From: Polaromonas sp.
Lineage (GTDB): Bacteria; Pseudomonadota; Gammaproteobacteria; Burkholderiales; Burkholderiaceae_C
Assembly: GCF_013817205.1 (NCBI RefSeq)
Contig: NZ_JACDDD010000012.1
Coordinates: forward strand, 1 to 56,853
Reading direction: 5' to 3'
DNA length: 56,853 bases
The position numbers were made by a program, and so were the translations under genes. The notes under the pieces were generated by a model, which was not told the DNA's origin, made no database searches, and saw only the letters and a list, made by a program, of their open reading frames with translations. Position 1 is the first letter of the stretch. Every line of letters begins with the position of its first letter. This document shows positions 9,134-22,495 of the stretch, piece after piece.

Positions 9134-9892
9134 TTACTCGACCAGCAAGCCGCCATCGACCTGAAGGTCGACGCCGTTGACATAAGACGCTGCCGCAGAG
9201 GCAAGAAAGGCAATGGCGTGGGCAACTTCATCAGCGGTCCCGAATCTTTTCAGCGGGTTCGCCTCAAGCTTGGCTTTGCCCACGGCCGCCACGACATCCG
9301 CCGGCAGCCCGGTTTTCTCCCAGGCGGGAGTAGCAATCGTGCCTGGACTGACCGTGTTGACACGGATACCCCGGCCGGCCAGTGTCGGCACCAGGCCTTT
9401 CGCCATGAGTGTGAGCGCGGCCTTGGTGCCGGCATAAACGGCTGTCGCGGCGCCGCCACGGTGCGCCAGAAAAGAACTCACCATGGTGATACTGCCGCCG
9501 TCAGCCAGGCGCTTGCTGAGCGCCTGCACCATGAACCAGGGGCCGCGCGCGTTCACTGCGAAGGCTTCGTCAAACGCCTGCGCTGTCCAGCTGCCGAGTG
9601 GTGTGAAAGGCACGATGCCAGCGCTCAGCACGAGTGCATCGATAGGCGGAATTTTCTTGTCGGCCAAGGCGCCGTCCAGCGCCTTGATATCGGTAATCGA
9701 TGCCGCATCGCTGCGCAGCGCGATAAACCCATGCGCATGGGCGGCTTCGTTGAGCCTTGTGGTGTCTCGCCCTGTAATGATCACCTGCGCGCCGCGCGCC
9801 GCCAGCAGCCTGGCGGTTGCCAGCCCAATGCCAGACGAGCCCCCTGTTACCAGCGCTGTTTTACCCTTGAAATCCAAATCCCGACTGACCAT
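9134..9892 (-). CDS. SDR-family NAD(P)-dependent oxidoreductase
   Basis: A 252-residue classical short-chain dehydrogenase. The Rossmann motif TGGSSGIG is at residues 16-23, LSAGI stands in for the NNAG region, and the active-site YAGTK supplies the Tyr-xxx-Lys pair; the C-terminus YVNGVDLQVDGG is typical. The start MVSRDLDFKG at 9892 has a good AGGAGA ribosome site upstream. It is divergent from a TetR regulator with 128 bases between them, an arrangement that usually means the regulator controls it. The substrate cannot be inferred. Confidence 0.92.
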   Translation of the reverse strand: MVSRDLDFKGKTALVTGGSSGIGLATARLLAARGAQVIITGRDTTRLNEAAHAHGFIALRSDAASITDIKALDGALADKKIPPIDALVLSAGIVPFTPLGSWTAQAFDEAFAVNARGPWFMVQALSKRLADGGSITMVSSFLAHRGGAATAVYAGTKAALTLMAKGLVPTLAGRGIRVNTVSPGTIATPAWEKTGLPADVVAAVGKAKLEANPLKRFGTADEVAHAIAFLASAAASYVNGVDLQVDGGLLVE

Positions 9893-10020
9893 GACTTTCT
9901 CCTGAGTGTTGACATCGGTACCGGGCCGCCCTGAATGGGCAACCATCTTGTATCGATTGGTCCATGATAGTTTGTTAGACTGCTCAGTGCAAGATAAATT
10001 TTTCAGGATGGGGAAATTCC

Positions 10021-10629
10021 ATGAGTGGAGCCAAGCAGTTTGATGAGGCGGCAGCAGTGCTCAGTGCGGCGCACGCCTTCTGGGAAAAGGGTTTTGCGGG
10101 CACCTCGCTGTCAGACCTCGAGGCCGCTACCGGCCTGGGCCGGTCCAGCTTGTACAACGCCTTTGGCTCAAAAGAGGCTCTCTATGAACGCGCTCTCAAA
10201 AGCTATGCGGACACTTATGCCCGCCCCATCCTGCAGGCGCTGGAGCAAACGGACATCCGCACAGGGATAGGCGAGTTCTTTTCGCTGGCAGTTCAAGCCC
10301 TGCTGGACGCCTCCACGCCACCGGGATGTCTGGCTGCCATGGCCTGCCTTGAGACCGGTGGCTCAGAGGGGCCCGGTGCCAAGTTCACGGCGTTTCAGCT
10401 GAAGGTGATTGGCTCCTCACTTCGCGCAGCGCTGGACCGGGGTGTTGCCTCTGGGCAGCTCGCCAACAAGACCGACACCGCTTCGCTTGCGCTCACCTAT
10501 ACCGCCTTGCTGCGGGGGCTGGCCTCGCTGCACAAAGGGGGGCAGAGCGCCAAAGAGCTGCAGGCCATCGTGCGGGTCAGTGTTGGCATGTTGCCCCCCG
10601 CAGAAAAGAGCAGACAAAAATCCGCCTAA
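10021..10629 (+). CDS. TetR/AcrR family transcriptional regulator
   Basis: A 202-residue TetR-type repressor. The N-terminal helix-turn-helix covers about residues 20-55 (TSLSDLEAATGLGRSSLYNAFGSKEALYERAL), and the C-terminal half is a ligand-binding domain. It is divergent from the SDR gene and probably represses it and itself. I looked at 9893-10020 for an operator and saw only weak symmetry (a TATC-GATA pair), so no site is claimed. The ATG at 10021 follows AGGATGGGG. Confidence 0.9.
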   Translation: MSGAKQFDEAAAVLSAAHAFWEKGFAGTSLSDLEAATGLGRSSLYNAFGSKEALYERALKSYADTYARPILQALEQTDIRTGIGEFFSLAVQALLDASTPPGCLAAMACLETGGSEGPGAKFTAFQLKVIGSSLRAALDRGVASGQLANKTDTASLALTYTALLRGLASLHKGGQSAKELQAIVRVSVGMLPPAEKSRQKSA

Positions 10630-10648: not shown

Positions 10649-11662
10649 CTACCGGCCCGCTGCCAGCAAGTCGGCAAAAACCATGGCGTCCACATTGCCG
10701 CCGCACAGCGTGGTGCCCACCACCTGTCCGCGCAGTTGCTCACGCTCCTGCATCGCAGCTGCAAAACTCGCGGCGCCTGCGCCTTCGGCGACATTGTGTG
10801 TGTCGGCATACAAGTCGCGCATGGCCTGCGCCACTTCGCTGTCGGTCACCTGCACGATGTGGTCCAGGTGCGGCGCCAGGATGTCCAGCGCCTTCTGGTC
10901 CGCGATGCGGCAGGCCATGCCGTCGGCCAGCTGCGTTGTCACCGGTGCTTCGACCACGCGGCCAGCCGCCAGGGACTCTGCATAGGTGATGGCATGAGCG
11001 CTGACCACGCCCACAATGCGCAGCTTGCGTTTTAGCGCCAGCTTGGCGGCAATCGCCGAGCACGCGCCCGAGCCTTGGCCGATCGGCACATACACCACGT
11101 CAAGCTGCGGCACAGCCAGCATGAATTCCCACCAGTAGGTGCTGACGCCGCTCAGCAAGTCGGCGTGGAAACTTGGCACCATGTGTGCGCCGCTTTCGCC
11201 GGACAGCTGAAGAGCATGCTCGCGGCTTTCCTGGAAGTCTTCGCCGTGTTCCACCAGCGTCACGCCGAGTGCGCGCATGGCGGCATTTTTTTCCAGCGAG
11301 TTGCCTCGCGGCACGACGATGGTGCAGGCCACTCCATGCGCGCGCGCGGCCCAGCCCATGCTTTGGCCGTGGTTGCCGCGTGTGGCGCTCACCACCGCAG
11401 CTGGCAACTGTCCTCGCGTCTTGAGTGCGTCAAAGTAGGTCAGCCCGCCGCGAATTTTGAACGCGCCAACCGGTGTGTGGTTCTCGTGCTTGATCCAGCA
11501 ATCGGTGCCCAGCCGCCGGCTCGACAGGCCCCAGCGGTATTGCGGTGTCGCCTGAAACTCGCGATAGACAACACGTGCGGCGTGTTCAATGTCCTGAAGC
11601 CCGGGCAGCCCCCTTGGTCGGGTGGCCAATGCAGGTGCTTCTTCTCTTAACACAGCGCTCAT
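10649..11662 (-). CDS. threonine/serine dehydratase-like PLP enzyme
   Basis: A 337-residue fold-type II PLP enzyme of the threonine dehydratase family, without the C-terminal ACT domains found in biosynthetic IlvA (a separate ilvA lies at 38268). The PLP lysine is K69 in PVGAFKIRGG, and the phosphate-binding glycine loop is GQGSGACSA near residue 195. Such enzymes eliminate water and ammonia from hydroxy-amino acids through enamine intermediates. It is the last gene of the 10649-20928 run and overlaps the upstream LysE gene by 4 bases (ATGA). A relative such as a hydroxyaspartate or diaminopropionate lyase is possible. Confidence 0.88.
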   Translation of the reverse strand: MSAVLREEAPALATRPRGLPGLQDIEHAARVVYREFQATPQYRWGLSSRRLGTDCWIKHENHTPVGAFKIRGGLTYFDALKTRGQLPAAVVSATRGNHGQSMGWAARAHGVACTIVVPRGNSLEKNAAMRALGVTLVEHGEDFQESREHALQLSGESGAHMVPSFHADLLSGVSTYWWEFMLAVPQLDVVYVPIGQGSGACSAIAAKLALKRKLRIVGVVSAHAITYAESLAAGRVVEAPVTTQLADGMACRIADQKALDILAPHLDHIVQVTDSEVAQAMRDLYADTHNVAEGAGAASFAAAMQEREQLRGQVVGTTLCGGNVDAMVFADLLAAGR

Positions 11663-12297
11663 GATGCAGTCCTTTTTTCAGTCAGCAGGCGCAGCGCCAG
11701 CAGGCCCATGACGGTACCCATGACATAACGCTGAACACGCATCCAGCCGACGTTGCGGTTCAGAAAAACAGACATGGTCGCGGCAAAGAAAATCAGCAAG
11801 GTGTTGACAGCCACACTCACGCCGATCTGCACTGCGCCCAGGGTCAGGCTTTGCAGAAACAATCCACCGCGTTCAGGGTGCAGAAACTGAGGGAAGAACG
11901 AGAGGTAAAACATGGCCACTTTCGGGTTGAGCAGGTTGGTCAGGAAACCCATCAGAAACAGCTTGCGCGGCGGGTCGTGCGGCAGCGCGCGGGTTTCGAA
12001 CGGTGAGAGGCCTCCGGGCTTGACAGCCTGCCACGCCAGCCACAAGAGATAGACGGCCCCCGTCACTTTGATGGCAGTAAAAGCCAGAGGTGCTGCCAGC
12101 AGCAACGCCGTCAGGCCGAGCGAGGCGCCGAGCAGGTGCACGACAAACCCCAGCGCCACGCCGCCCAGCGACACCATGCCCGCACTGCGGCCCTGGCACA
12201 GGGTGCGCGAGATGCAATAAATCATGTTGGGCCCGGGCGTGAGCACCAGTGCCAGCGCGACGAAGGCAAACCAGCCGAGTTCGGAAGTTGTGAGCAT
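11659..12297 (-). CDS. LysE/RhtB family translocator (1 of 4 in the cluster)
   Basis: A 212-residue inner-membrane exporter with about six hydrophobic segments and the family signature LTPGPNMIYCISRTLCQGRSAG near residues 20-40. A second landmark, GFLTNLLNPKVAMFYLSFFPQF, is also present. Family members export amino acids (lysine, homoserine, threonine, cysteine and others) by proton exchange. It overlaps the dehydratase start and directly abuts the VOC gene. Being paired with a PLP dehydratase suggests it exports an amino acid related to that enzyme's substrate. Confidence 0.92.
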   Translation of the reverse strand: MLTTSELGWFAFVALALVLTPGPNMIYCISRTLCQGRSAGMVSLGGVALGFVVHLLGASLGLTALLLAAPLAFTAIKVTGAVYLLWLAWQAVKPGGLSPFETRALPHDPPRKLFLMGFLTNLLNPKVAMFYLSFFPQFLHPERGGLFLQSLTLGAVQIGVSVAVNTLLIFFAATMSVFLNRNVGWMRVQRYVMGTVMGLLALRLLTEKRTAS

Positions 12298-13011
12298 CTA
12301 GATTCCTTTTGATTCGAGCAAAACCCGCCCGCGCGGTGTGTTCAGCGTGGCGATGAGATTGGGTGGGCCCGGGATGACATCGACGCTGCTCAGGCCGATG
12401 GCGGCATAGGCGGTCTGCAGTTGTTCGGGGCGCGGATGGCGCGCCTGCAGCGCCTCCAGCGTCACGCCGGAGGCAGGCATGGCGTCCAGCGGATGCGCGG
12501 CACGCGCCGGATCTTCGCCAGCCTCGCCCCACTGGATCAGCGTGGGCAGCGCGCCGTAGAACAGGCGCTGGCCGTCGTCACGCACGGTCATGCGCCAGCT
12601 CAGTAAGCCGCCGGCAGTCTGGCGCGAGGCGGGCACCACGGTCCCGCGGTCCAACCCTTGGGTGGCCAGGGCCTTGGCGGCAGAAACCACGCCAGGCACG
12701 CTGGCCACAAAATGAACCAGCTGCGGTCCGTCGCTGGCCACGCGTGCCTGGAGCATGGCGTCATCCATGTCGAACCAGCGGTGTTTGCCGCCACCGCGCG
12801 CCGGTGTCACGCCGGGCTGGATCGCGATGATCTCGAAATAGGCCCGTGGAAAGGCGGCACTGGCGACACTGAACAGCCGGTTGTGCGTGCCCATCAGCGG
12901 GTGTTCGCCGCCCGGTCCGGGGGGGATGCCCAGGGCGCCTTGGCACCACTGGACACCCTGCTCCAGGCTCGTAGCCACCACAACCAGATGATCAACGTGA
13001 GCGCTGATCAC
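12298..13011 (-). CDS. VOC (glyoxalase-like) family protein
   Basis: A protein of about 237 residues with a glyoxalase-3-like VOC fold: HVDHLVVVATSLEQGVQWC opens the first module, and a histidine- and aspartate-containing KHRWFDMDD follows. Its start is a GTG at 13011 whose GTGA overlaps the TGA of the phzF-like gene, which decides the start and implies translational coupling. The longer frame upstream is the antisense-like reading of phzF and is rejected. The reaction is unknown; metal-dependent lyase, isomerase or dioxygenase activities all occur in this fold. Confidence 0.82.
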   Translation of the reverse strand: MISAHVDHLVVVATSLEQGVQWCQGALGIPPGPGGEHPLMGTHNRLFSVASAAFPRAYFEIIAIQPGVTPARGGGKHRWFDMDDAMLQARVASDGPQLVHFVASVPGVVSAAKALATQGLDRGTVVPASRQTAGGLLSWRMTVRDDGQRLFYGALPTLIQWGEAGEDPARAAHPLDAMPASGVTLEALQARHPRPEQLQTAYAAIGLSSVDVIPGPPNLIATLNTPRGRVLLESKGI

Positions 13012-13940
13012 AGCGTGACCGTCCCGGCTATGCAGGTAACCGATTCGCCGCCCACCCAGACGATGCTTGTGCCGCCCGCGCTTTCGCGCGACAGGTGAAC
13101 CCGCCCGGCCCGGCCCAGGCAGGTGCCCTGCGCCACGACGTAGTGGTCGGGCGCATGGCCCTCCGCCATCAGCCACTGCGCCAGGCTGGCGTTCAGGCTG
13201 CCGGTGACCGGGTCTTCGTTGATGCCTATGGGTGCGGCGAAAGCGCGCACCTCAAAGTCTGCTGTGGGCGTTTCTGCGCGGCCGGCGTGTGTGCTGCCGG
13301 AAAAAGCGCGTGCTTCGCGGTTGGCGCGTGCTATCAAAAGAGGAGCTGTTTGCGCTTGATGGGCGCCGGCTACACCCACTTTCAAGTCATACTTTTTGAG
13401 TGCGGCGTGATCCGGTTGCAGCTGCAGCACGGTGTCGGCGCTGTCGAGCAGCAAGCCCAGCCACACCGGCCCGTTGTCGAGAAGTTGTGCGGCAAGAATC
13501 TGTTGCGCCTTCAGACCGAGAGCGCCGGCCACCTGCGCAAGCGCGACAGGGCCAGGCGCAGAGCGCTTGAGCGGGGGCGCGGCAAAAGCCTGGCGCGGGC
13601 CTTCGCGGCGTATGTTCACCAGTCCGACCTGGCACTGTTGCACGATGAGGTCTGTGCGCTTTGGCTTGCCCCCAGCCTGCAGCCAGGCATGGCAGGTGCC
13701 CAGAGTCGGGTGACCGGCAAAAGGCAGCTCGCCGCCAGGCGTAAAGATGCGCACGCGGTAGTCGGCCGATGGCTCGGTAGGTGGCAGCACAAAGGTGGTT
13801 TCCGACAGATTGGTCCATTGCGCGAAGCGCTGCATGGTCGCGTCGTCCAGGCCACCGCCGTCCAGCACCACGGCCAGCGGGTTGCCGAAATAGGGCAGAT
13901 CGGTGAACACATCGACTTGTTTGAAAGGTCTGGTTTTCAT
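13008..13940 (-). CDS. PhzF family isomerase/epimerase-like protein
   Basis: A 310-residue member of the PhzF superfamily (diaminopimelate epimerase fold). Typical landmarks are QVDVFTDLPYFGNPLAVVLD at the N-terminus, LSETTFVLPP with the catalytic-type glutamate, TPGGELPFAGHPTLG, and INEDPVTGSLNA towards the end. An atypical stretch of about 30 residues just before ADFEVRAFAAPIGINEDP coincides with a GCTAT-family element at about 13330-13370, so that loop may be repeat-derived. Start MKTRPFKQVDV at 13940; the longer frame is rejected. It is translationally coupled to the VOC gene. Confidence 0.9.
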   Translation of the reverse strand: MKTRPFKQVDVFTDLPYFGNPLAVVLDGGGLDDATMQRFAQWTNLSETTFVLPPTEPSADYRVRIFTPGGELPFAGHPTLGTCHAWLQAGGKPKRTDLIVQQCQVGLVNIRREGPRQAFAAPPLKRSAPGPVALAQVAGALGLKAQQILAAQLLDNGPVWLGLLLDSADTVLQLQPDHAALKKYDLKVGVAGAHQAQTAPLLIARANREARAFSGSTHAGRAETPTADFEVRAFAAPIGINEDPVTGSLNASLAQWLMAEGHAPDHYVVAQGTCLGRAGRVHLSRESAGGTSIVWVGGESVTCIAGTVTL

Positions 13941-13965
13941 GGCGTATGGGTTCTTTGGAAAGTGT

Positions 13966-14586
13966 TCAGGACAGTGGCAAGTCCAGCACGCCGCGTGTTG
14001 CTGGGCGCGCAAGTATGGCTTGGTACCAGCGGTCCAGATGTGGACGTGCAAGCCGCGGCTGCGGCAAACCCTGCCAGCGGTGAATCTCGCAGGCCAGTGG
14101 AATGTCTGCCATGGTGAACCGGTCTCCACCGGCAAAGGCTTGGCGGGCCAGGTGCGCGTCCAGCAAGGCCAGCAAGGGTTCTGTGGCGGCATTGGATTGC
14201 GCAATCAGCGTCGGATCGCGCTGATCGGCCGGTGTACGAATCCACTGAATAAAAGCGTTGCGGCCGGCAGGGTTGAAGGTGGTCTGCTGCCAGTCCATCC
14301 ACTGCTCGGCGGCAAAGCGCTCAGGCAAGCCGGCGGGGTAAAAATCGCCATGCGAATATTTTGCGCAGAGATAACGCACGATGACATTGGACTCCCAGAT
14401 ACGCACTTCGCCGTCTTCAATCAGCGGCACAAGTGCATTGGGATTTTTCCGCAGGTAGTCCAATTCCTTCACGATGCCAAACTGGCCGCCCGCATCGGTG
14501 CGCTGCATGGTCAGGCCAAGCTCTTGCGCAGCCCACACGACTTTGCGTACATTGATGGAGCTGAGGCGTCCCCAGAGATGAAGCAT
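13966..14586 (-). CDS. glutathione S-transferase family protein
   Basis: A 206-residue cytoplasmic GST. The thioredoxin-like N-terminal domain begins LHLWGRLSSINVRKVVWA, where the SSxxVRK segment is the usual glutathione-activating region. VPLIEDGEVRIWESNVIVRYL carries the cis-proline and the glutathione-contacting E-S pair, and the helical C-terminal domain starts near residue 85. It lies 3 bases downstream of a LysE gene. GSTs in catabolic clusters often handle electrophilic intermediates, which would suit a cluster that also holds a VOC and a DJ-1 protein, but the substrate is unknown. Confidence 0.9.
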   Translation of the reverse strand: MLHLWGRLSSINVRKVVWAAQELGLTMQRTDAGGQFGIVKELDYLRKNPNALVPLIEDGEVRIWESNVIVRYLCAKYSHGDFYPAGLPERFAAEQWMDWQQTTFNPAGRNAFIQWIRTPADQRDPTLIAQSNAATEPLLALLDAHLARQAFAGGDRFTMADIPLACEIHRWQGLPQPRLARPHLDRWYQAILARPATRGVLDLPLS

Positions 14587-14589
14587 GGG

Positions 14590-15228
14590 TCAGACTCCTT
14601 TGGACGGGCGGTCAAGCAGCAAGAGGCGCAATGCCAACCCGGCCATCACAAATGCCAAAAAACCGGCCTGAAATTTCGCGACACGGGGCCGGGCCTGGAG
14701 GCGGCGCCCGATCTGCCCGCTGAAGGCACCCAGAACGGTGTTGAACACCAGCGCCATCACCGACAAAATGGCACCCAGGGCCAGTAGCTGCAGCGTGACG
14801 TGGCCGCGCGCCGGCTCAACGAACTGTGGCAGGAACACCATGAAAAAAAGCAGCGCCTTGGGGTTGACCAGATTGTTGAGCAAGGCCATGCGCATGATGC
14901 GGGCAAAGCCAGCAGGCTGCGTGTCGGCAGCGCCGCGTGCATCTGCGGGGCGCAGAGCCTGCCAGGCGAGCCAGAGCAGGTACAGCGCGCCCGCATAACG
15001 CAGGATGTCGAAAGACGGCGGCCAGGCTGCGATCAGCGCAGTGACGCCGGTCGCGGCACACAGCGTATGCACCAGGTCGGCTGCGGAGATGCCAAGCGCC
15101 GCAGCAAAACCACCGCGCACGCCGTGCGCCAGCCCGTGTGACATCACAAATGCCATGTTCGGCCCGGGCGACGCAAACAGTGCCAGCACCGCCAACGCGA
15201 ACAGCGACAGCGTGCCCGCATCCATCAT
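14590..15228 (-). CDS. LysE/RhtB family translocator (2 of 4)
   Basis: A 212-residue membrane exporter with the signature FASPGPNMAFVMSHGLAHGVRGG near the N-terminus and ALLNNLVNPKALLFFMVFLPQFV in the middle. Two consecutive ATG codons open the frame; the first (15228) overlaps the end of the aminotransferase gene by 4 bases. This copy is clearly diverged from the other three LysE genes in the run, so the set is not a recent tandem amplification. Its pairing with the aminotransferase suggests export of an amino acid or amine handled by that enzyme. Confidence 0.92.
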   Translation of the reverse strand: MMDAGTLSLFALAVLALFASPGPNMAFVMSHGLAHGVRGGFAAALGISAADLVHTLCAATGVTALIAAWPPSFDILRYAGALYLLWLAWQALRPADARGAADTQPAGFARIMRMALLNNLVNPKALLFFMVFLPQFVEPARGHVTLQLLALGAILSVMALVFNTVLGAFSGQIGRRLQARPRVAKFQAGFLAFVMAGLALRLLLLDRPSKGV

Positions 15229-16418
15229 GCGGCCCGCAGTTCTTCGGCAACGCCGGTCGGCAGCTGCTCACGTATGGCCGCGGCCAGCGCAGTGATGCCG
15301 ATATTGATCTGTTCAACGCTCGAGGTCACAAATGACAGTCGCAGCGTGCGGGCGTCAGCATGGTCAGCGTAAAACGCCCAACCGGGGACAAATGCCACGT
15401 TGCGCTCAACTGCTTTGGGCAGCAAGTCGATGGCGTTCATGCCTTCGGGCAGGCGCACCCACAAAAACATGCCGCCGGCGGGTGTGTTCCAGCTCACGCC
15501 TTCTGGCATATCGCGCTGCATGGCGGTCAGCATCGCGTCGCGCTGCGACTTGTAGAGCGCACGTATCGTGGGCACGTGTCGGTCGAGAAAATTGTCCTTC
15601 ATGGTCTCCACCACCATGCGCTGGTTAAAGCCGGGCGTGTGCAAATCGGCGGCCTGCTTGGCCTGCAGCAGCTTGGGGTAAAGCGCCTTGGGCGCGACCA
15701 GAAATCCCAGGCGCAAACCGGGCGCCAGAATTTTGGAGAACGAGCCCATGTACATGCAACCCTCGGGGTTGCGCGCCGTGAGCGGCAGCGGCGGCGGGTT
15801 GTCAAACCAGAGGTCGCCGTAGGGGTTGTCCTCAACGATGGGCAAGCCCAGGCGCATCGCTTCGGCACTCAATGCAGCGCGGCGCTCTTCAGACATGGTG
15901 CGGCCGGTCGGGTTCTGGAAGTTGGGCAGCACGTAGAAAAAGCGCGCGCCGGCGGCCTTGGAAGCCAGATCGCTGATATCAACACCTTCCTCGTCGCTGG
16001 CCACGCCCACCACCTCAGGCTCCATCGGTGTGAAGGCCTGCAGCGCACCCAGATAAGTCGGAGTTTCTACCAGCACCTTGCTGCCAGCGTCGATCAGAAT
16101 CTTGGCAATCAAGTCCAGCCCCTGCTGCGAGCCGGTGGTGATCAGCACCTGCGCCGGGTCAACCTCCCAGGGCAGCATGGCGGCAACCATCTCGCGCAGC
16201 GGGGCGTAGCCTTCGCTGGCGGCGTACTGCAGCGCGGCACTCCCGTCTTCACGCAGCACCTTGTCGCAGGCTTCGCGAAAGGCGGCGACAGGAAAAGTTT
16301 TGGGCGAGGGCAGGCCGCCAGCAAAGCTGATGATGCCGGGCTTTTCCGTGACCTTCAGGATCTCGCGGATCACCGAAGGGTTCATTTTCTCGGCGCGTTT
16401 GGCCATGGTCCAGTTCAT
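15225..16418 (-). CDS. PLP-dependent aminotransferase, class I/II (2-aminoadipate/LysN-like)
   Basis: A 397-residue fold-type I aminotransferase without a DNA-binding domain. The PLP lysine is K229 in MGSFSKILAPGLRLGF; other signatures are GGLPSPKTFP, LITTGSQQGLDLI, PNFQNPTG and VEDNPYGDL. It resembles the LysN/2-aminoadipate and aromatic aminotransferases that share ancestry with MocR regulators. The start MNWTMAKRAEKM at 16418 has a strong GGAGGAGAG site. The cupin stop and this start overlap by one base, and its end overlaps a LysE gene. The amino donor is unknown. Confidence 0.92.
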   Translation of the reverse strand: MNWTMAKRAEKMNPSVIREILKVTEKPGIISFAGGLPSPKTFPVAAFREACDKVLREDGSAALQYAASEGYAPLREMVAAMLPWEVDPAQVLITTGSQQGLDLIAKILIDAGSKVLVETPTYLGALQAFTPMEPEVVGVASDEEGVDISDLASKAAGARFFYVLPNFQNPTGRTMSEERRAALSAEAMRLGLPIVEDNPYGDLWFDNPPPLPLTARNPEGCMYMGSFSKILAPGLRLGFLVAPKALYPKLLQAKQAADLHTPGFNQRMVVETMKDNFLDRHVPTIRALYKSQRDAMLTAMQRDMPEGVSWNTPAGGMFLWVRLPEGMNAIDLLPKAVERNVAFVPGWAFYADHADARTLRLSFVTSSVEQINIGITALAAAIREQLPTGVAEELRAA

Positions 16419-16768
16419 TACTTCTCTCCTCCTTGTGGGCCGTAAAACACAACCCATGTCACAAAATCATTGCTGAAATTTTCAAAGCGGTGCTGCGCTC
16501 CCGCCGCTACAAAAAATGCATCGCCGGCAACCGCATCAAAACCTTGTCCGTTGATGATGATCTCACCCCGGCCGCTGTGCACAAAATAGAGTTCATCCTG
16601 TGTGTGCGGCTGCTGGCGGTCACGCCTATCCTGGTTGCTGCCGGGTGCGAACACTTCCACGCTCATGCTGCCATGGGCCAGAACCTGTGCAAAGGGCACG
16701 CCCTCCGGATAGACGCCGGCCGGCGCGCCGGGCAGGCGTTTCAGGGTTTGGTCAATGGAGGCCTTCAA
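16418..16768 (-). CDS. cupin domain protein
   Basis: A 116-residue single-domain cupin. The conserved metal-binding pattern is visible as PHTQDELYFVHSGRGEIIING (His, Glu) and a second motif around FFVAAGAQHRFENFSNDF. The start is an unusual TTG at 16768, chosen because the next ATG lies well inside the fold. TTGA overlaps the TGA of the upstream gene, so the two are translationally coupled. Possible roles are a dioxygenase, isomerase or small sensor; nothing in the sequence decides. Confidence 0.82.
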   Translation of the reverse strand: MKASIDQTLKRLPGAPAGVYPEGVPFAQVLAHGSMSVEVFAPGSNQDRRDRQQPHTQDELYFVHSGRGEIIINGQGFDAVAGDAFFVAAGAQHRFENFSNDFVTWVVFYGPQGGEK

Positions 16769-17223
16769 GCGCTTGCTCCCCGAGTCTGCATGCCATGGAT
16801 GATCTGGATCGCCTGGGCCGCGACGCCGCGCGGAATTCCCCAGTAGTCAAAGATGCCGCCATCGGCAGAGTTTTGTCCGCAGACCACAAACACGCCTGTG
16901 CCCAACTGCTGCTTGAGCTCGCTGGCGAGCCAGCCTACAAAGCCGCTGTTCGGAATATCGGGCGCAAAGTGAACACACACCACCGCGCAACAGTCTTGTG
17001 CAGGGGTTTGCGCCGGGGCCGGCAGTAGGGCACTCCAGACGTCCTGGTCGCGTACCAAAGCCAGCGCGCTGCTGGCGAGGCTGGAGGCCAAATGCGCCGG
17101 AAACTGCGCCATGGGAAACTCCGCGAAGGTATGGTCACCCGGCAAGACGTCCACACGTGCGTGCGCCATCACGCGCAACAGCCGGCGGCGTGTTTGTTCG
17201 GGTGTTTCTGGCGAAATGTCCAT
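16765..17223 (-). CDS. conserved hypothetical protein, GIFDYWGIPRG motif
   Basis: A 152-residue soluble protein with no signal peptide or membrane segment. It is acidic to neutral, with a helical N-terminus (SPETPEQTRRRLLRVMAHAR) and a C-terminal block SADGGIFDYWGIPRGVAAQA that looks conserved. It may belong to the small DUF6196 family, but I am not certain of that. It is coupled by a 4-base overlap to the TTG-started cupin and lies 26 bases after the DJ-1 gene. Its position between PLP-enzyme and stress-type genes suggests a metabolic role; no function is proposed. Confidence 0.72.
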   Translation of the reverse strand: MDISPETPEQTRRRLLRVMAHARVDVLPGDHTFAEFPMAQFPAHLASSLASSALALVRDQDVWSALLPAPAQTPAQDCCAVVCVHFAPDIPNSGFVGWLASELKQQLGTGVFVVCGQNSADGGIFDYWGIPRGVAAQAIQIIHGMQTRGASA

Positions 17224-17249
17224 GGGGTTCAGTCGTTGGCCCGGCAGGT

Positions 17250-17894
17250 TCAGGTGGCGCTGGAAGTTTCCAGCGCCACCGCTTGTTCTGGCAAATGCGG
17301 GGTGATGTGTGACAGTGCCCGTGCCACGTAGTCTTCTTTCTCACCGACTGGTGCGAAGTAATGCAGCACTTCTGTAGCCTGGGCAATGCCCTTCAGCCGC
17401 GCGATCATCCAGCCCGAAATGTATTGGGCCGACAAACAACCGCCGGCCGTTGCCAGGTTGCCGTTTGCAAAAAAAGCCTGGTTCAAAATTTTGACACCCG
17501 CCGCTTGCACCCAGGGTTTGCTGGTGGTGTCGGTACATGCCGGTGTTTGGCCAATGAGCCCCAGCTTGGCGAGCAGAAAGGTTCCGGAACACTGCGCCGC
17601 AATGAGCTGGCGCTGCGGGTCTAGCTGCAGTTGGCCGAGGATGGACGGGTCGTTGGCGACTTCACGCGTTTTCATTCCGCTGCCTATCAGTACGGCGTCG
17701 GCCTGGTTGGCCTCCTTCAGGCCGATGTGGGCGTCGATGGTCAGCCCGTTCATGGAGGTCACGCGTGCGGTGGGGCTGGCAATACTCACCCGCCAGTCGG
17801 TATCGCCGATCAATGACAGGCGGCTCAGCATGCCATAGGCAATGAGTGAATCGAGTTCATTGAATCCGTCGAAGGTGAGGATGGCGATGTGCAT
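17250..17894 (-). CDS. DJ-1/PfpI family protein
   Basis: A 214-residue class I glutamine-amidotransferase-like protein. The nucleophile elbow is C102 in IAAQCSGTFLLAKLGLI, with an acidic residue near the N-terminus (FDGFNELDSL) as in the family. The family includes PfpI-like hydrolases, isonitrile hydratases and deglycase or chaperone proteins. The QADAVLIGSG and TSKPWVQAAGVK segments suit the isonitrile hydratase/ThiJ branch, but this is a guess. It sits in the middle of the run, 62 bases after the DHCW cupin gene, the largest gap in the run. Confidence 0.87.
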   Translation of the reverse strand: MHIAILTFDGFNELDSLIAYGMLSRLSLIGDTDWRVSIASPTARVTSMNGLTIDAHIGLKEANQADAVLIGSGMKTREVANDPSILGQLQLDPQRQLIAAQCSGTFLLAKLGLIGQTPACTDTTSKPWVQAAGVKILNQAFFANGNLATAGGCLSAQYISGWMIARLKGIAQATEVLHYFAPVGEKEDYVARALSHITPHLPEQAVALETSSAT

Positions 17895-17956
17895 AAATGC
17901 GCTCCGGGGGCGGTTGACAGGGGCTTGGTTGATTGGATGTAGAAGCCGGGACGGAA

Positions 17957-18286
17957 TCAGTCCACGATAAACAGTTTGGCACCCTGGGGCGCGGTCGAGC
18001 GGTGCGCTTCGGCCTTGTCCGCCACCTGGTAACTCATGCCGGGCAGCAGCACATGCTGGCTGCCGTCTTCAAGCTCGGTATGCAATTCACCCTCCAGGCA
18101 GAGCAGGATGTGGCCCTTGCTGCACCAGTGGTCAGCGGTGTAGTCGGCGCTGTACTCGACCATGCGCACACGGACCTCGCCAAACTTGCGCGTACGCCAG
18201 AACGCCCGCCCGGTGATGCCGGGGTGCTCTGTCCGTTCCACGGTGGACCAGTCGGTCGTGCCAAAGGGAATGTTGTCGATCTGCAT
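17957..18286 (-). CDS. DHCW-motif cupin fold protein
   Basis: A 109-residue cupin-like protein. The family-naming motif appears as ADHWCSKGHILLCLEGEL, where the usual D-H-C-W order reads D-H-W-C, followed by a second beta-barrel half (GMSYQVADKAEAHRSTA). Start and length suit the family. It lies 3 bases after the short RidA-like fragment. No enzymatic role is established for this group as far as I know; its presence with another cupin (16418-16768) suggests small-molecule binding. Confidence 0.83.
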   Translation of the reverse strand: MQIDNIPFGTTDWSTVERTEHPGITGRAFWRTRKFGEVRVRMVEYSADYTADHWCSKGHILLCLEGELHTELEDGSQHVLLPGMSYQVADKAEAHRSTAPQGAKLFIVD

Positions 18287-18289
18287 GGT

Positions 18290-18400
18290 TTACGCGCTGA
18301 CCGCCACGATGGCTTCAATTTCCAGCGCAAAGCCGCGCGGCAAAGAGCTGACGCCGACGGTTAAATGTGCGTGGGGGCCTGGCTCCGGTGTCTTGGTCAT
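18290..18400 (-). pseudogene. RidA/YjgF family C-terminal remnant
   Basis: A 36-codon frame (MTKTPEPGPHAHLTVGVSSL and on) whose last 25 residues match the C-terminus of RidA proteins, which typically end in R-x-x-VGVxSLPxGxxVEIEAVVAV. The other 90 or so residues, including the substrate-binding arginine region, are absent. Its ATG overlaps the end of the ABM gene (ATGA), so it could still be translated as a short peptide. RidA removes reactive 2-aminoacrylate made by PLP dehydratases, so an ancestral full gene would have made sense beside the dehydratase of this cluster. Confidence 0.65.
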
Positions 18401-18729
18401 GCATGAGCCCGCTGGTTGGGGGTGATGTGGCTGATCTTTCCGTCGCCGTACGAACGCAGCACTTGCGAGATAACGATATGAAAGCCCTTGTACCACTGGG
18501 TGTACTGGCGTTTGGCTTCCAGATGTTTGGGGTGAGCCGAGAACGCGCGCAGCGACTCTTCGGTCTCCCAGAAGTAGGTGGCGTTTCTGAGCACGGCGTC
18601 GGGCGAGAGCCACAACTCTGATCCCAGATAACCGGGCGTGGTCCGCGCGGCTTCTTCGATCAACGCGTCCAGCGCGTGGAAGCGGTCGTCGTAGGTGCCT
18701 GGTTCAAACATAAAGGCGGCCGAATACAT
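18397..18729 (-). CDS. antibiotic biosynthesis monooxygenase (ABM) domain protein
   Basis: A 110-residue ferredoxin-like alpha/beta protein. The segments FHALDALIEEAARTTPGYLGSELWL and ATYFWETEESLRAFSAHPKHLEAKRQYTQWYKGFHIVISQVLRSYGDG fit the ABM family, small dimers that oxygenate substrates without cofactor or act as binding proteins. The start MYSAAFMFEPG at 18729 is chosen over a longer frame. A second, frameshifted ABM gene lies at 46519-46844. It overlaps the RidA remnant by 4 bases. Confidence 0.82.
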   Translation of the reverse strand: MYSAAFMFEPGTYDDRFHALDALIEEAARTTPGYLGSELWLSPDAVLRNATYFWETEESLRAFSAHPKHLEAKRQYTQWYKGFHIVISQVLRSYGDGKISHITPNQRAHA

Positions 18730-18752
18730 GGTGTTTTTTTGGAGTTCAAGAG

Positions 18753-19391
18753 TCAGGTGGACGGATTTTTGAGGCGCAGCAAACTCAGGCCCAGCAGAGC
18801 GAACGCGCCACCACACAGGCGGTTGAATATGCGGGCCCGGTGCGGTGTGCCAAACCAGCGCCGGGTGTGGCGCGCCAGCAGCACATAAGCCAGATGCGAA
18901 GTCAGCACGCAGGCGGCGAAGGCGCTGGTCAGCGCCAGAAACTGGGGCAGCATGCCAGTTTCGGGCCGGATGAATTGGGGAAACAGCGCGGTGAAAAACA
19001 AAATGCTTTTGGGATTGGTCAGTGCCACCAGCAAACCCTGGCGAAAAAGCGCGACATGGCTTTTGACGGATGAGGTCTGCGCGGGCAAAGGGGTGTCAAA
19101 CATTGAGGTCTTGCTGGTCCACTGCCGCCAGCCGAGGTAAACCAGATACACGGCGCCTGCGGTTTTGAGCGCAGCAAACAGCCAGGCCGAGGTATGCAGC
19201 AGGGTGCCCAGGCCTGCCATTGCCGCAGCAGAAACCAAAAACACACCCAGTACATTGCCCGCAGAACTCCACAGCGTCTTGCGCGGTCCCCAGGCCACGG
19301 CATTGGAAACGGCCAGCAAAATGCCCGGCCCCGGGCTGAGCGCGGTGACCAGCGAGATGGTGATGAAAAGCAGCCAGGCGGAAGTGGTCAT
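18753..19391 (-). CDS. LysE/RhtB family translocator (3 of 4)
   Basis: A 212-residue membrane exporter. The signature ALSPGPGILLAVSNAVAWGPRK replaces the usual PGPN with PGPG, and LLVALTNPKSILFFTALFPQF is the second landmark. About six hydrophobic segments are visible. Its ATG overlaps the stop of the EamA gene by 4 bases. Of the four paralogues it differs most at the substrate-lining first motif, so it may have a different specificity. Confidence 0.9.
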   Translation of the reverse strand: MTTSAWLLFITISLVTALSPGPGILLAVSNAVAWGPRKTLWSSAGNVLGVFLVSAAAMAGLGTLLHTSAWLFAALKTAGAVYLVYLGWRQWTSKTSMFDTPLPAQTSSVKSHVALFRQGLLVALTNPKSILFFTALFPQFIRPETGMLPQFLALTSAFAACVLTSHLAYVLLARHTRRWFGTPHRARIFNRLCGGAFALLGLSLLRLKNPST

Positions 19392-20320
19392 GTGCGTGAA
19401 GTAATGAGTGAGTTTTGCGTCGAGGGCTGGATCTGCATTTTCTTGCCGATGAAAACCGTGGCGATCACGGCGATACCAAAACCGACGGTGACAGCGTCCA
19501 GGCGTTCACCGAGAAGTGGCACGGCAAACAGCATGGACAAAAATGGCTGCACCAGCTGCACCTGGCTGACGCGCACCGTGCCGCCCAGTGCCAGGCCACG
19601 GTACCAGGCAAAAAACCCCAGCCACATCGAAAACACGCCGAGGTAGGCAAAGCCGGCCCAGGCGGTGGCCCGGACCGGCGCTGTGGGCCAATTCAGCCAC
19701 GCCAGCGGCAGGGTCAGCGGCAGGGAGATCAGCAGCGCCCAACAGATCACGTGTTCGGCCTGCATGTGCTGCGATAGCCGCGCGCCATAGCCGTAGCCGA
19801 TGGCTGCACACAACATGGCCGCCAGCAGCAACATGTCGGCGAAATGAATCGAGAAACCGGCCGCCCCCGACCGCAGCACCGCGAATGCCACCACCAGTGC
19901 GCTGCCGAACGCCGCGCACAACCAGAAACCTGTCGACGGCCGCTGGCGATGCAACACCGCCCCCACCGCAGCGGTGGCCAGCGGAAGCACGCCGACAATC
20001 ACGCTCGCGTGCATGGCTTCCACATAACGCATGGCGATCGAGGTGAACAGGGGAAAACCAAAAACCACCCCGGCGGCCGTGATCGCCAGCGGCAGCCAGT
20101 TTTGGCGCTGCGGCAAAGGTGCCCGGGTCGCCAGCAGAAACAGTGCTGACAACCCTGCGGCGACCACAGCCCGCCCCAGCGCAATGAACATACCCGACAT
20201 CTGCGGCGCATCGGGCGTGCCCACGGCCAGGCGCGTCATGGGCAGCGTGACGGCGAAAATCACGATGCCCAGCAGGCCCAGCCACAGCCCCTTGTTGATC
20301 TGCGCAGAGGTGGGGCTCAT
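19388..20320 (-). CDS. DMT-superfamily (EamA) transporter
   Basis: A 310-residue inner-membrane protein with about ten hydrophobic segments arranged as two EamA repeats of five. The start MSPTSAQINKGLW at 20320 overlaps the upstream LysE stop (ATGA); the longer frame is rejected. EamA proteins export amino acids and metabolites such as cysteine derivatives. Landmarks are LGIVIFAVTLPMTRLAVG early and AGFAYLGVFSMWLGFFAWYRGLALG late. It lies between two LysE exporters. Confidence 0.9.
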   Translation of the reverse strand: MSPTSAQINKGLWLGLLGIVIFAVTLPMTRLAVGTPDAPQMSGMFIALGRAVVAAGLSALFLLATRAPLPQRQNWLPLAITAAGVVFGFPLFTSIAMRYVEAMHASVIVGVLPLATAAVGAVLHRQRPSTGFWLCAAFGSALVVAFAVLRSGAAGFSIHFADMLLLAAMLCAAIGYGYGARLSQHMQAEHVICWALLISLPLTLPLAWLNWPTAPVRATAWAGFAYLGVFSMWLGFFAWYRGLALGGTVRVSQVQLVQPFLSMLFAVPLLGERLDAVTVGFGIAVIATVFIGKKMQIQPSTQNSLITSRT

Positions 20321-20928
20321 AGAAAAAGCATCCAGATGGCGGTGGCCACCAGCACGGCGGCCATCCCCAGGTTGAACCCACGCAGGCGCCTGCCCGTGCC
20401 CTGCGGCCCCGACAGCCATTCACGAAGCAGTGAGCCGGCCAGCGCGTACGTCAGATTGCTGGCAAAGGCATAGGCCAGCATCACCGGAAGCACCACGGCA
20501 AAACGCAGGCCGGGGTCGCTGCGGCCGGCGATCCAGCCACTGACAATGGCAAGGGCCAGCATCCAGGCCTTGATGTTGACAAACTGCAGTGCTGCGCCCT
20601 GCCAGAAGCCGATGTTCATGCGGTCGGCGTCGGCCTGGCTGAGCTGACGCGAACGCGCGATCTTCGAGGCCAGCCAGAACAGGTAGACCACGCCGAGCAA
20701 CTTGATCGCCAGCCCCAGCAGCGGGATCGCCAGCAGCAGCGCGCCCAGGCCCAGCGCGCACAGGCTCAGCAACACGCCCCAGCCGACCGGCACCGCACAG
20801 ACGAAGGGCATGGCGCGGCGCAGGCCGTGGTTGGCCGCCAGCGCGGTCGCGAGCGTGGTGTTGGGCCCGGGCGAAAAGCTCATGGCCGTCGCCAGCACCA
20901 GCAAAGCGATAAATTCTTGCCAATTCAT
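20317..20928 (-). CDS. LysE/RhtB family translocator (4 of 4, first gene of run)
   Basis: A 203-residue membrane exporter, slightly shorter than the other three. The signature SFSPGPNTTLATALAANHGLRR is near the N-terminus, and the second landmark is FVNIKAWMLALAIVSGW, in which the usual NPK is NIK. It is the first gene behind the divergent promoter region that holds a TACAGTT-AACTGTA inverted repeat, opposite the MocR gene, so it is the most direct target of that regulator. It probably exports a small amino compound. Confidence 0.9.
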   Translation of the reverse strand: MNWQEFIALLVLATAMSFSPGPNTTLATALAANHGLRRAMPFVCAVPVGWGVLLSLCALGLGALLLAIPLLGLAIKLLGVVYLFWLASKIARSRQLSQADADRMNIGFWQGAALQFVNIKAWMLALAIVSGWIAGRSDPGLRFAVVLPVMLAYAFASNLTYALAGSLLREWLSGPQGTGRRLRGFNLGMAAVLVATAIWMLFL

Positions 20929-20965
20929 GCTTCAGACTTTATAGTCCAAACCAGCACATCAACAG

Positions 20966-20996
20966 TACAGTTGTGAGTACAAAATCTGAAACTGTA
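20966..20996. promoter_or_regulatory. inverted repeat, probable MocR operator
   Basis: TACAGTT (20966-20972) and AACTGTA (20990-20996) are perfect inverted arms with a 17-base spacer, in the 109-base region between the divergent LysE (20928) and MocR (21038) genes. A further GAGTACAAAA lies inside. MocR regulators usually bind paired sites in such divergent regions, which is the basis of the assignment. Confidence 0.6.
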
Positions 20997-21037
20997 TTGC
21001 CCCGTTTGTCAGCACACCGATTGTCCAAGGCTCGCCC

Positions 21038-22495
21038 ATGTTGATGAAAACCGCCGCCCAGTCGCTGACCGAGCAGCTCAGCGCTCGTTTTGCCGAACGC
21101 ATACGCGGCCGCCTGCTGGCGCCGGGGGCGCGCCTGCCCTCGGTGCGCCAGTGTGCGCAGCAGCAGGGGGTGAGCGTCTCCACCGTGGTGGCCGCGTATG
21201 ACCAATTGCTGGCCCAAGGGCTGGTCGAGGCGCGCAAGAACCGGGGCTTTTTTGTGCGGGATGTGACCGCTGCATTTCCCGCCCGGTCCGCCAGCCGACC
21301 GGCGGCCGCCCCGACCGGCACCCCGGACTCACCGGTCTGGAGCACCTCGGCCTGGATGGCAACCCGGCAGGCGCCGGTCGATGCTTCGGCGCTGATCCGT
21401 GGCATGTTCCATCGCGTCAGCAACAAGCCGCAGCCTGGCATGGGCGTGTTCCCGCCCGAGTGGCTGGACACCAGCTTCCTGCCGGCTGCCGTGCGCAAGG
21501 TCACGAGCGGCAGCGCGCTGCGCGATTTTTCGCTGAGTTACGGCGAACCCATGGGCGACAGCGGCCTGCGCCGCGCGTTGTCGCAAAAACTCGGCGTGCT
21601 CAATGTGCATGCAGCGCCTGAGCAGATCATTACCAGCGTGGGCGCCACCCACGCGCTAGATATCGTCAGCCGCACCCTGCTGCGCGCCGGCGACTGCGTG
21701 ATGGTCGAGGAGCCGGGCTGGGCGGTCGAGTTTGCGCGGCTCGATGCTATGGGCATGCGCATCCTGCCGGTGCCGCGGCGTGCCGACGGCCCGGACCTGG
21801 AAGTGATGGCGCGTTACTGCGAGGCCCACGCGCCCAAGTTGTTTGTCAGCGTCAGCGTGCTCCACAACCCGACTGGTTATTGCCTGACACCCGGCAGCGC
21901 ACATCGCCTGTTGCAGCTGGCCAATACACACAACTTCCATATCGTTGAAGACGATACCTATAGCCACCTGGCGCCGGAGCATGCGACGCGGCTGTGCGCG
22001 CTGGACGGCCTGCAGCGCACCATTTACGTCAGCGGCTTCGCCAAGATCCTGGCGCCGGGCTGGCGTGTCGGCTTCATGGCGGCGCCGCCAGATCTGGTGC
22101 AGCGCCTGCTGGACACCAAGCTTCTGGGCACCTTGACCACACCGGCGCTGCTTGAAAAGGCGCTGGCCTGGTGCATCGACCAGGGTCAGTTGCGCCGCCA
22201 TGCCGAACGCATACGCACGCAGCTCGCTGCGGCGCGCGCCCGCAGCGTCAAGCTGGCGCTGGCCCACGGCTGCAGCTTCGCGGCCGAGCCGGCCGGCCTG
22301 TTCGGCTGGGTCGATACCGGTGTGGACACCGACGCGCTGGCCCAGCGCATGCTCGACGAGGCTTACCTGATCGCGCCGGGTGCGCTGTTCCACGCGGTGC
22401 GCACACCGACCACGCTGATGCGCATCAACTTCGCGACCACCCAGGAAGCGGCGTTCTGGAAGGTGTTTGCGCGGCTGCGTAACGCGATGTTGTGA
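21038..22495 (+). CDS. MocR-type (GntR/aminotransferase fusion) transcriptional regulator
   Basis: A 485-residue fusion of a GntR winged helix (residues about 10-75, RLPSVRQCAQQQGVSVSTVVAAYDQLLAQGLVEARKNRGFFV) and a fold-type I aminotransferase domain from about residue 120. The PLP lysine is K336 in YVSGFAKILAPGWRVGF, and SVGATHALDIV, LHNPTGYC and VEDDTYS are conserved. MocR proteins sense PLP together with an amino ligand. It is divergent from the exporter/PLP-enzyme run at 10649-20928 and is its likely regulator. An ATG two codons in (21044) is an alternative start. Confidence 0.93.
   Translation: MLMKTAAQSLTEQLSARFAERIRGRLLAPGARLPSVRQCAQQQGVSVSTVVAAYDQLLAQGLVEARKNRGFFVRDVTAAFPARSASRPAAAPTGTPDSPVWSTSAWMATRQAPVDASALIRGMFHRVSNKPQPGMGVFPPEWLDTSFLPAAVRKVTSGSALRDFSLSYGEPMGDSGLRRALSQKLGVLNVHAAPEQIITSVGATHALDIVSRTLLRAGDCVMVEEPGWAVEFARLDAMGMRILPVPRRADGPDLEVMARYCEAHAPKLFVSVSVLHNPTGYCLTPGSAHRLLQLANTHNFHIVEDDTYSHLAPEHATRLCALDGLQRTIYVSGFAKILAPGWRVGFMAAPPDLVQRLLDTKLLGTLTTPALLEKALAWCIDQGQLRRHAERIRTQLAAARARSVKLALAHGCSFAAEPAGLFGWVDTGVDTDALAQRMLDEAYLIAPGALFHAVRTPTTLMRINFATTQEAAFWKVFARLRNAML

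Follow-up and report, generated by a model that had tools for sequence, protein, structure and literature searches.

A large MocR-associated operon of predicted amino-acid exporters and PLP enzymes in Polaromonas

Regulators of the MocR type sense pyridoxal 5'-phosphate (PLP) and amino compounds (PMC5320631, PMC8067088). The parts of the 2016 study by Suvorova and Rodionov that we draw on predict MocR regulons with DMT (drug/metabolite transporter) or LysE transporters, PLP aminotransferases, GloA, PhzF (COG384), threonine dehydratase and the imine scavenger RidA, name PhzF and DMT transporters as a functional link, and list in Table 2 an operator class of forward, inverted, forward and forward boxes with 4 regulogs and 19 regulons (PMC5320631). 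The gvg cluster of Pseudomonas fluorescens WH6 likewise combines a positive regulator of the MocR type with an aminotransferase and three LysE genes; export and survival depend on at least one of two exporters, and the cluster, described as present in few strains, makes 4-formylaminooxyvinylglycine with carbamoyl- and formyltransferases (PMC8067088). Here, we analyze an operon of 16 gene units and its divergent MocR gene in a 56,853-nucleotide stretch of Polaromonas sp. (hereafter the window; positions 1 to 56,853 of contig NZ_JACDDD010000012.1, assembly GCF_013817205.1, family Burkholderiaceae_C), and propose that it serves in the efflux and detoxification of an amino compound.

An initial annotation of this DNA held that no known system has such a gene set, a claim overtaken by the MocR regulons of this make-up already predicted in 2016 (PMC5320631). 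Since that study lists both the regulon class and its parts, and since gvg, which is of similar build, has been studied experimentally, we regard the operon as a very large further case of a known, poorly characterized kind of MocR regulon. It shares with the described PdxQ regulon MocR, DMT/LysE exporters, a PLP aminotransferase, PhzF and a GloA-type lyase; PdxQ, as far as it is set out in the parts cited, also includes pdxO/pdxH, whereas none of pdxO, pdxO2 and pdxH is among the window operon's genes, which add a glutathione S-transferase (GST), DJ-1, cupins, DUF6196 and an ABM-like gene to the inventory given in those parts (PMC5320631). The carbamoyl- and formyltransferases of gvg are absent. 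The aminotransferase aligns with Thermus LysN (2egy) at 343 bits over nearly its whole length; LysN serves lysine synthesis, whereas its window counterpart sits in a MocR operon. GabR, EnuR and TauR operons also place a MocR type regulator over amino-compound genes, but their catabolic sets (gabTD, ectoine, taurine) are not found here. Within a limited literature search we found no published description of this exact operon; the new details are a double ACT fold model for DUF6196 and a view of the operon as a recombination mosaic.

A packed operon behind a divergent MocR gene

The operon is a packed minus-strand string of 10,280 bp (10649-20928) comprising 15 intact genes and one remnant, divergent from the MocR gene. 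Its junctions are seven 4-base overlaps, one 1-base overlap and gaps of 0, 3, 3, 23, 25, 26 and 62 bases, so that the single-direction packing first described (gaps of 0-62 bases, seven or more 4-base overlaps) is borne out by measurement. The count given then, 14 intact genes and one remnant, becomes 15 and one: the 110-aa gene at 18397-18729 is full length against its relatives, and the remnant is the 36-codon RidA piece at 18290-18400. Family scans agree with the other initial assignments: five exporters (four LysE over the Pfam cut-off and one EamA), two PLP enzymes, PhzF, GST, VOC, DJ-1, two cupins, and a MocR with GntR and Aminotran_1_2 domains. They also confirm DUF6196. The genes are given here from MocR and then from 20928 downward.

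21038-22495, plus strand: MocR regulator, GntR helix-turn-helix (HTH) plus aminotransferase-like domain; PF00392 and PF00155 over cut-off
20317-20928, minus strand: LysE_d, LysE-type exporter; PF01810 51.6 bits, nearest NCBIfam model EamB (cysteine/O-acetylserine), below cut-off
19388-20320, minus strand: EamA-type (DMT) exporter; PF00892 94.4 bits, start placed by 4-base overlap
18753-19391, minus strand: LysE_c, RhtB-like exporter; PF01810 108.9 bits, below NCBIfam cut-offs
18397-18729, minus strand: ABM-like small protein, 110 aa, intact; weak PF13826 match, 21.2 bits, below the cut-off of 25
18290-18400, minus strand: RidA (YjgF) remnant of 36 codons that lacks a large internal part; C-terminal similarity to the RidA of locus L030
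17957-18286, minus strand: DHCW-motif cupin; NF038084 178 bits, cut-off 70
17250-17894, minus strand: DJ-1/PfpI protein; PF01965 44.7 bits
16765-17223, minus strand: DUF6196 protein; model with double ACT-like fold
16418-16768, minus strand: Cupin_2 protein; PF07883 45.1 bits
15225-16418, minus strand: class I/II aminotransferase of LysN/KAT-II type, no HTH; best solved relative Thermus LysN
14590-15228, minus strand: LysE_b, LeuE-like exporter; PF01810 126.4 bits, below NCBIfam cut-off
13966-14586, minus strand: GST-like protein; PF02798 and PF00043 over cut-off
13008-13940, minus strand: PhzF-family isomerase; PF02567 191 bits, closest solved structure 1ym5
12298-13011, minus strand: VOC protein (Glyoxalase_3); PF13468 114.9 bits
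11659-12297, minus strand: LysE_a exporter; PF01810 109 bits
10649-11662, minus strand: PALP enzyme of threonine/serine dehydratase type; NF004771 517.8 bits (cut-off 317), PF00291 200 bits

Chance packing, named in the initial annotation as what would refute its proposal, is ruled out because the same gene order recurs in relatives. Terminator-like sites number 19, against 11.6 (standard deviation 3.7) in shuffles; of those on the operon strand none lies at an internal junction, and one, a weak stem (10626-10609), directly follows PALP. Promoter-like sites are at chance level (2 observed, 1.7 in shuffles). We predict a single transcript across the operon. The perfect inverted repeat of 12 bp found at the 3' end of DJ-1 (17253-17280) was rejected as a terminator, as it has no T run and is not seen in loci L030, L006 and L066.

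The four LysE proteins, each above the PF01810 gathering score (12 matches in the genome), share only 27-38% pairwise identity, which rules out tandem duplication and indicates that they are distinct exporters, not recent copies. The aminotransferase was considered as a MocR protein without its HTH, since NCBIfam ranks PdxR first for it, yet its near-full-length alignment with LysN led us to reject this. MocR itself combines the GntR HTH and the fold-type-I aminotransferase domain that define MocR transcription factors, and carries an aminotransferase-type lysine motif, KILAPG, aligned with the aminotransferase.

Recurrence of the core and a conserved candidate operator

In neighbourhood comparisons the gene set was found together elsewhere. 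Seventy-three named loci, found with the aminotransferase as anchor (many from Polaromonas and Ramlibacter, a good part of them metagenome-assembled), show the gene order of the window, mostly with fewer genes. In 200-genome samples of the family, which include the window's own genome, the aminotransferase occurs in 154 genomes and MocR in 142. The two genes are divergent and at most 12 kb apart in 124 of the 131 relatives with both among the matches listed (median gap 1.7 kb; of 153 relatives in which the aminotransferase was matched, 146 were used); in the remaining 7 they lie on different contigs (6) or far apart (1). The gap of about 4.6 kb in the window is exceeded in only one genome (4.8 kb). 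Apart from G199, all 124 divergent loci were analyzed further, and these 123 family loci may overlap in genomes with the 73 named ones. In 106 of the 123, MocR lies immediately to the left, and in 76 EamA, the aminotransferase and PhzF occur together.

We then counted gene content in chains defined by a filter on third-position GC content (GC3) and a 220-bp gap rule, some long chains extending into unrelated downstream genes. Across 124 loci (123 relatives and the window) the chains contain the aminotransferase in 124, PhzF in 105, EamA in 91, LysE_d in 63, VOC in 58, PALP in 50, GST in 44, LysE_a in 20, the DHCW cupin in 9, Cupin_2 in 7, LysE_b and DJ-1 in 5 each, the ABM-like gene in 3, DUF6196 and LysE_c in 2 each, and RidA in 1 (the window's remnant; L030 is outside this set). 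Judged by gene content, the common core is MocR, EamA, the LysN-type aminotransferase and PhzF, while the remaining genes vary from locus to locus. The window has both the longest chain of the 124 loci (16 units, the next 13) and the highest exporter number (5, with 4 in 2 of the 123 relatives).

The intergenic region shared by MocR and LysE_d contains a multi-box candidate binding site beside the genes that it would regulate, and its box orientation (forward, inverted, forward, forward) is that of the class listed in 2016.

20938-21016, minus strand: four-box operator plus TATAAA, conserved in an alignment of 61 upstream regions (part of the alignment inspected); box 1 21010-21016, inverted box 2 20992-20999, box 3 20963-20970, box 4 20952-20958, TATAAA 20938-20943
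20917-20945, plus strand: possible promoter toward MocR, TTGCCA-17-TATAGT, 10/12 matches, overlapping the operon start

With at most one mismatch allowed, 57 of 72 named loci carry the pattern of boxes 3 and 4, as do 60 of 123 family loci; a scan of 1.46 million background positions on one strand gave no match. The window's genome holds one exact copy, at the operon, and MocR looks to be mainly a local regulator.

The outward promoter has the TATAAA element and no good -35. As TATAAA stands only 9 nucleotides upstream of the LysE_d ATG, and at a similar distance from the start codon in several relatives, the operon transcript may be leaderless. Toward MocR, a promoter score of 10/12 is reached by 34 of the 66 loci that begin with LysE_d, for which shuffles predict 0.2, but by a single one of the 55 loci without LysE_d in first place; because the signal is near chance in the latter, the LysE_d coding sequence may explain part of it. 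If real, this promoter would be in keeping with a MocR that regulates its own expression as well as activating the operon.

Gene turnover, recombination and loci outside the family

The turnover of operon genes is fast, as suggested by the many state changes counted on the aminotransferase tree: 29 for VOC, 28 for LysE_d, 22 each for GST and PALP, and 17 for LysE_a, all resting on one quick FastTree tree and the chain rule. Extra modules in relatives, from which 10 representative proteins were family-scanned, include AlaX-like tRNA-editing proteins, Asp/Glu racemases, GNAT acetyltransferases, DUF2917, a class V aminotransferase and a PF00797 N-acetyltransferase. The AlaX-like alanyl-tRNA editing proteins and the racemases fill accessory slots (for example L195:2539-3270 and L229:6661-7386); their counts vary by method, AlaX being found in 24 and racemase in 23 of the 123 family loci within 5 kb on the same strand, and in 14 and 12 of 124 when counted in chains. 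Mutual exclusion of PALP with AlaX or racemase was considered (raw Fisher p 0.008 and 0.0017) and rejected, as no signal appeared in independent tree pairs.

Comparison at the DNA level separates two groups of nearest relatives within the operon. Loci L015/L018-L023/L031 are the nearest for MocR, LysE_d, EamA (only slightly), PhzF, VOC and the phosphatase gene downstream, and L003-L007/L100 for the aminotransferase, LysE_b and GST (13966-16418); GST is 83% identical to L003 and 71% to L018, whereas VOC is 68% identical to L003 and 83% to L018. LysE_a and PALP are not separated between the two groups by this comparison. Because the nearest relatives of the middle block differ from those of the flanking genes, 13966-16418 was most likely exchanged by recombination, which would make the operon a mosaic.

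The RidA remnant can be read against Polaromonas sp. A23 (L030), where an intact RidA of 155 aa, matching PF14588 (YjgF_endoribonc), occupies the same place between the same neighbours; by this comparison the window's copy, which matches no NCBIfam model, has lost most of its middle. The adjoining ABM-like gene has copies 78-84% identical in Polaromonas loci. At the other end of the operon, a plus-strand TetR gene and a short-chain dehydrogenase/reductase (SDR) gene (9134-10629) lie between PALP and a histidine-phosphatase gene. Since several Polaromonas loci, L003, L005 and L100 among them, have the phosphatase immediately after PALP, the TetR/SDR pair looks inserted.

Searching 250 genomes at the level of the order (E 1e-110) gave 17 loci outside the family, from 16 genomes. 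A divergent MocR is present in 7 of them (L102-L105, L107, L108 and L110), together with at least one of LysE_d, EamA, VOC, GST, PALP and RidA, the genes being arranged differently from the window; in most of the others the aminotransferase is the only match. In 8 of the 17 (L102-L108 and L110) an intact-looking RidA lies less than 200 bp from the LysN-type aminotransferase, which suggests a link between imine scavenging and this enzyme. The pattern of boxes 3 and 4, at up to one mismatch, is kept in 3 of the 17.

Proposed function and alternatives

Taken together, we consider it probable that the local MocR controls an inducible operon for amino-acid efflux and detoxification. In this model MocR would bind PLP and an amino compound, occupy the four-box operator between the two divergent genes and activate the outward promoter (activation rather than repression, as we infer). 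The LysE and EamA carriers would export the compound, the LysN-type aminotransferase and the PALP enzyme of threonine/serine-dehydratase type would deaminate it, and VOC, GST, DJ-1, the cupins and, where present, RidA would handle the imines or carbonyls that arise as reactive products. A set of five exporters, two PLP enzymes of deaminating type, RidA, and glyoxalase- and GST-type proteins fits a role in clearing some unwanted amino compound together with what reactive products it gives. The gvg cluster provides an experimental parallel (PMC8067088), and the initial proposal of a MocR-controlled operon for exporting or detoxifying an amino compound is consistent with the gene content and its recurrence in relatives.

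The chemistry and the substrate we infer from the genes. The nearest exporter models are those for homoserine/threonine, cysteine/O-acetylserine and leucine; together with the dehydratase type and the relatives' AlaX and racemase they point loosely, none of them strongly, to small amino acids with a hydroxy or thiol group. Our best guess is one of these, of the serine, threonine, cysteine or homoserine type, or else a toxic analogue. DUF6196 may offer a further hint. Its AlphaFold model (pLDDT, the predicted local distance difference test, 92.3) has a double ACT-like fold and matches 1zvp (VC0802, the best solved structure) and 1zhv (Atu0741), then aspartokinase regulatory domains and the human CASTOR arginine sensors. 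The double ACT fold is known from amino-acid sensors, and the model makes such a role likely for the DUF6196 family, which occurs in 2 of the 200 family genomes (one being the window's own) and numbered 401 proteins in a database search; a limited literature search found no paper on it.

Several observations weigh against this reading. All four LysE proteins and EamA score below the NCBIfam cut-offs, which makes the substrate hint from the exporters weak. In the named loci, 73 in number and more closely related to the window, AlaX lies near the aminotransferase in 2 and racemase in 0, and the window's own operon has neither. Local control is also imperfectly matched: in 52 of the 123 family regions boxes 3 and 4 are not found even with two mismatches allowed, MocR is not the direct neighbour in 17 of the 123 loci, and, as five sites with one mismatch occur elsewhere in the genome against 0 for a reversed control pattern, MocR may have further targets. 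MocR proteins can act as repressors (PMC8067088), EnuR is described as one, and for the nearest described regulon class PLP metabolism is favoured in the parts of the 2016 study cited here (PMC5320631).

This last point raises an alternative of the PdxQ kind, in which MocR responds to PLP and the operon keeps PLP, PLP enzymes and compounds related to vitamin B6 in balance, with PhzF acting on a B6 derivative. PdxQ regulons do contain DMT or LysE transporters, aminotransferases, GloA, PhzF and RimI (PMC5320631), and PdxR is the best NCBIfam match of MocR. That match, however, stays at 215 bits under a cut-off of 320, while a different gene of the genome, on contig C94, exceeds it; moreover, no PdxH, PdxO or PdxST gene is among the operon's genes, and none was recognized in the relatives' chains, from which 10 representative extra proteins were family-scanned. 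We regard B6 homeostasis as unlikely.

Use of a particular amino compound as food, with the exporters merely relieving overflow, seems to us more doubtful still. MocR regulons for the use of gamma-aminobutyric acid, ectoine and taurine are described (PMC5320631), and the aminotransferase and dehydratase could supply central metabolism, but the operon has five exporters and no uptake system, and its genes include no dehydrogenase or other later pathway step. A biosynthetic cluster for an exported non-protein amino acid is very improbable, for although gvg too combines MocR, an aminotransferase and several LysE genes, it is described as limited to few strains, whereas the core found here is in most sampled family genomes, and the carbamoyl-, formyl- and amidinotransferases of gvg are not among the operon's genes (PMC8067088).

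As a widespread, uncharacterized family operon with a conserved operator, it could provide a route to the roles of many unassigned exporters and of DUF6196, and offers a test of the 2016 prediction linking PhzF, DMT exporters and MocR. More speculatively, it might represent a general defence of modular build by which Burkholderiales cope with amino acids that are toxic or in excess. A fixed core of sensor, exporter and aminotransferase would then be joined by interchangeable modules gained by recombination, such as exporters, a dehydratase, a tRNA-editing protein, a racemase, scavengers of imines and carbonyls, and an ACT-domain sensor, with gene content tracking local amino-acid antimetabolites.

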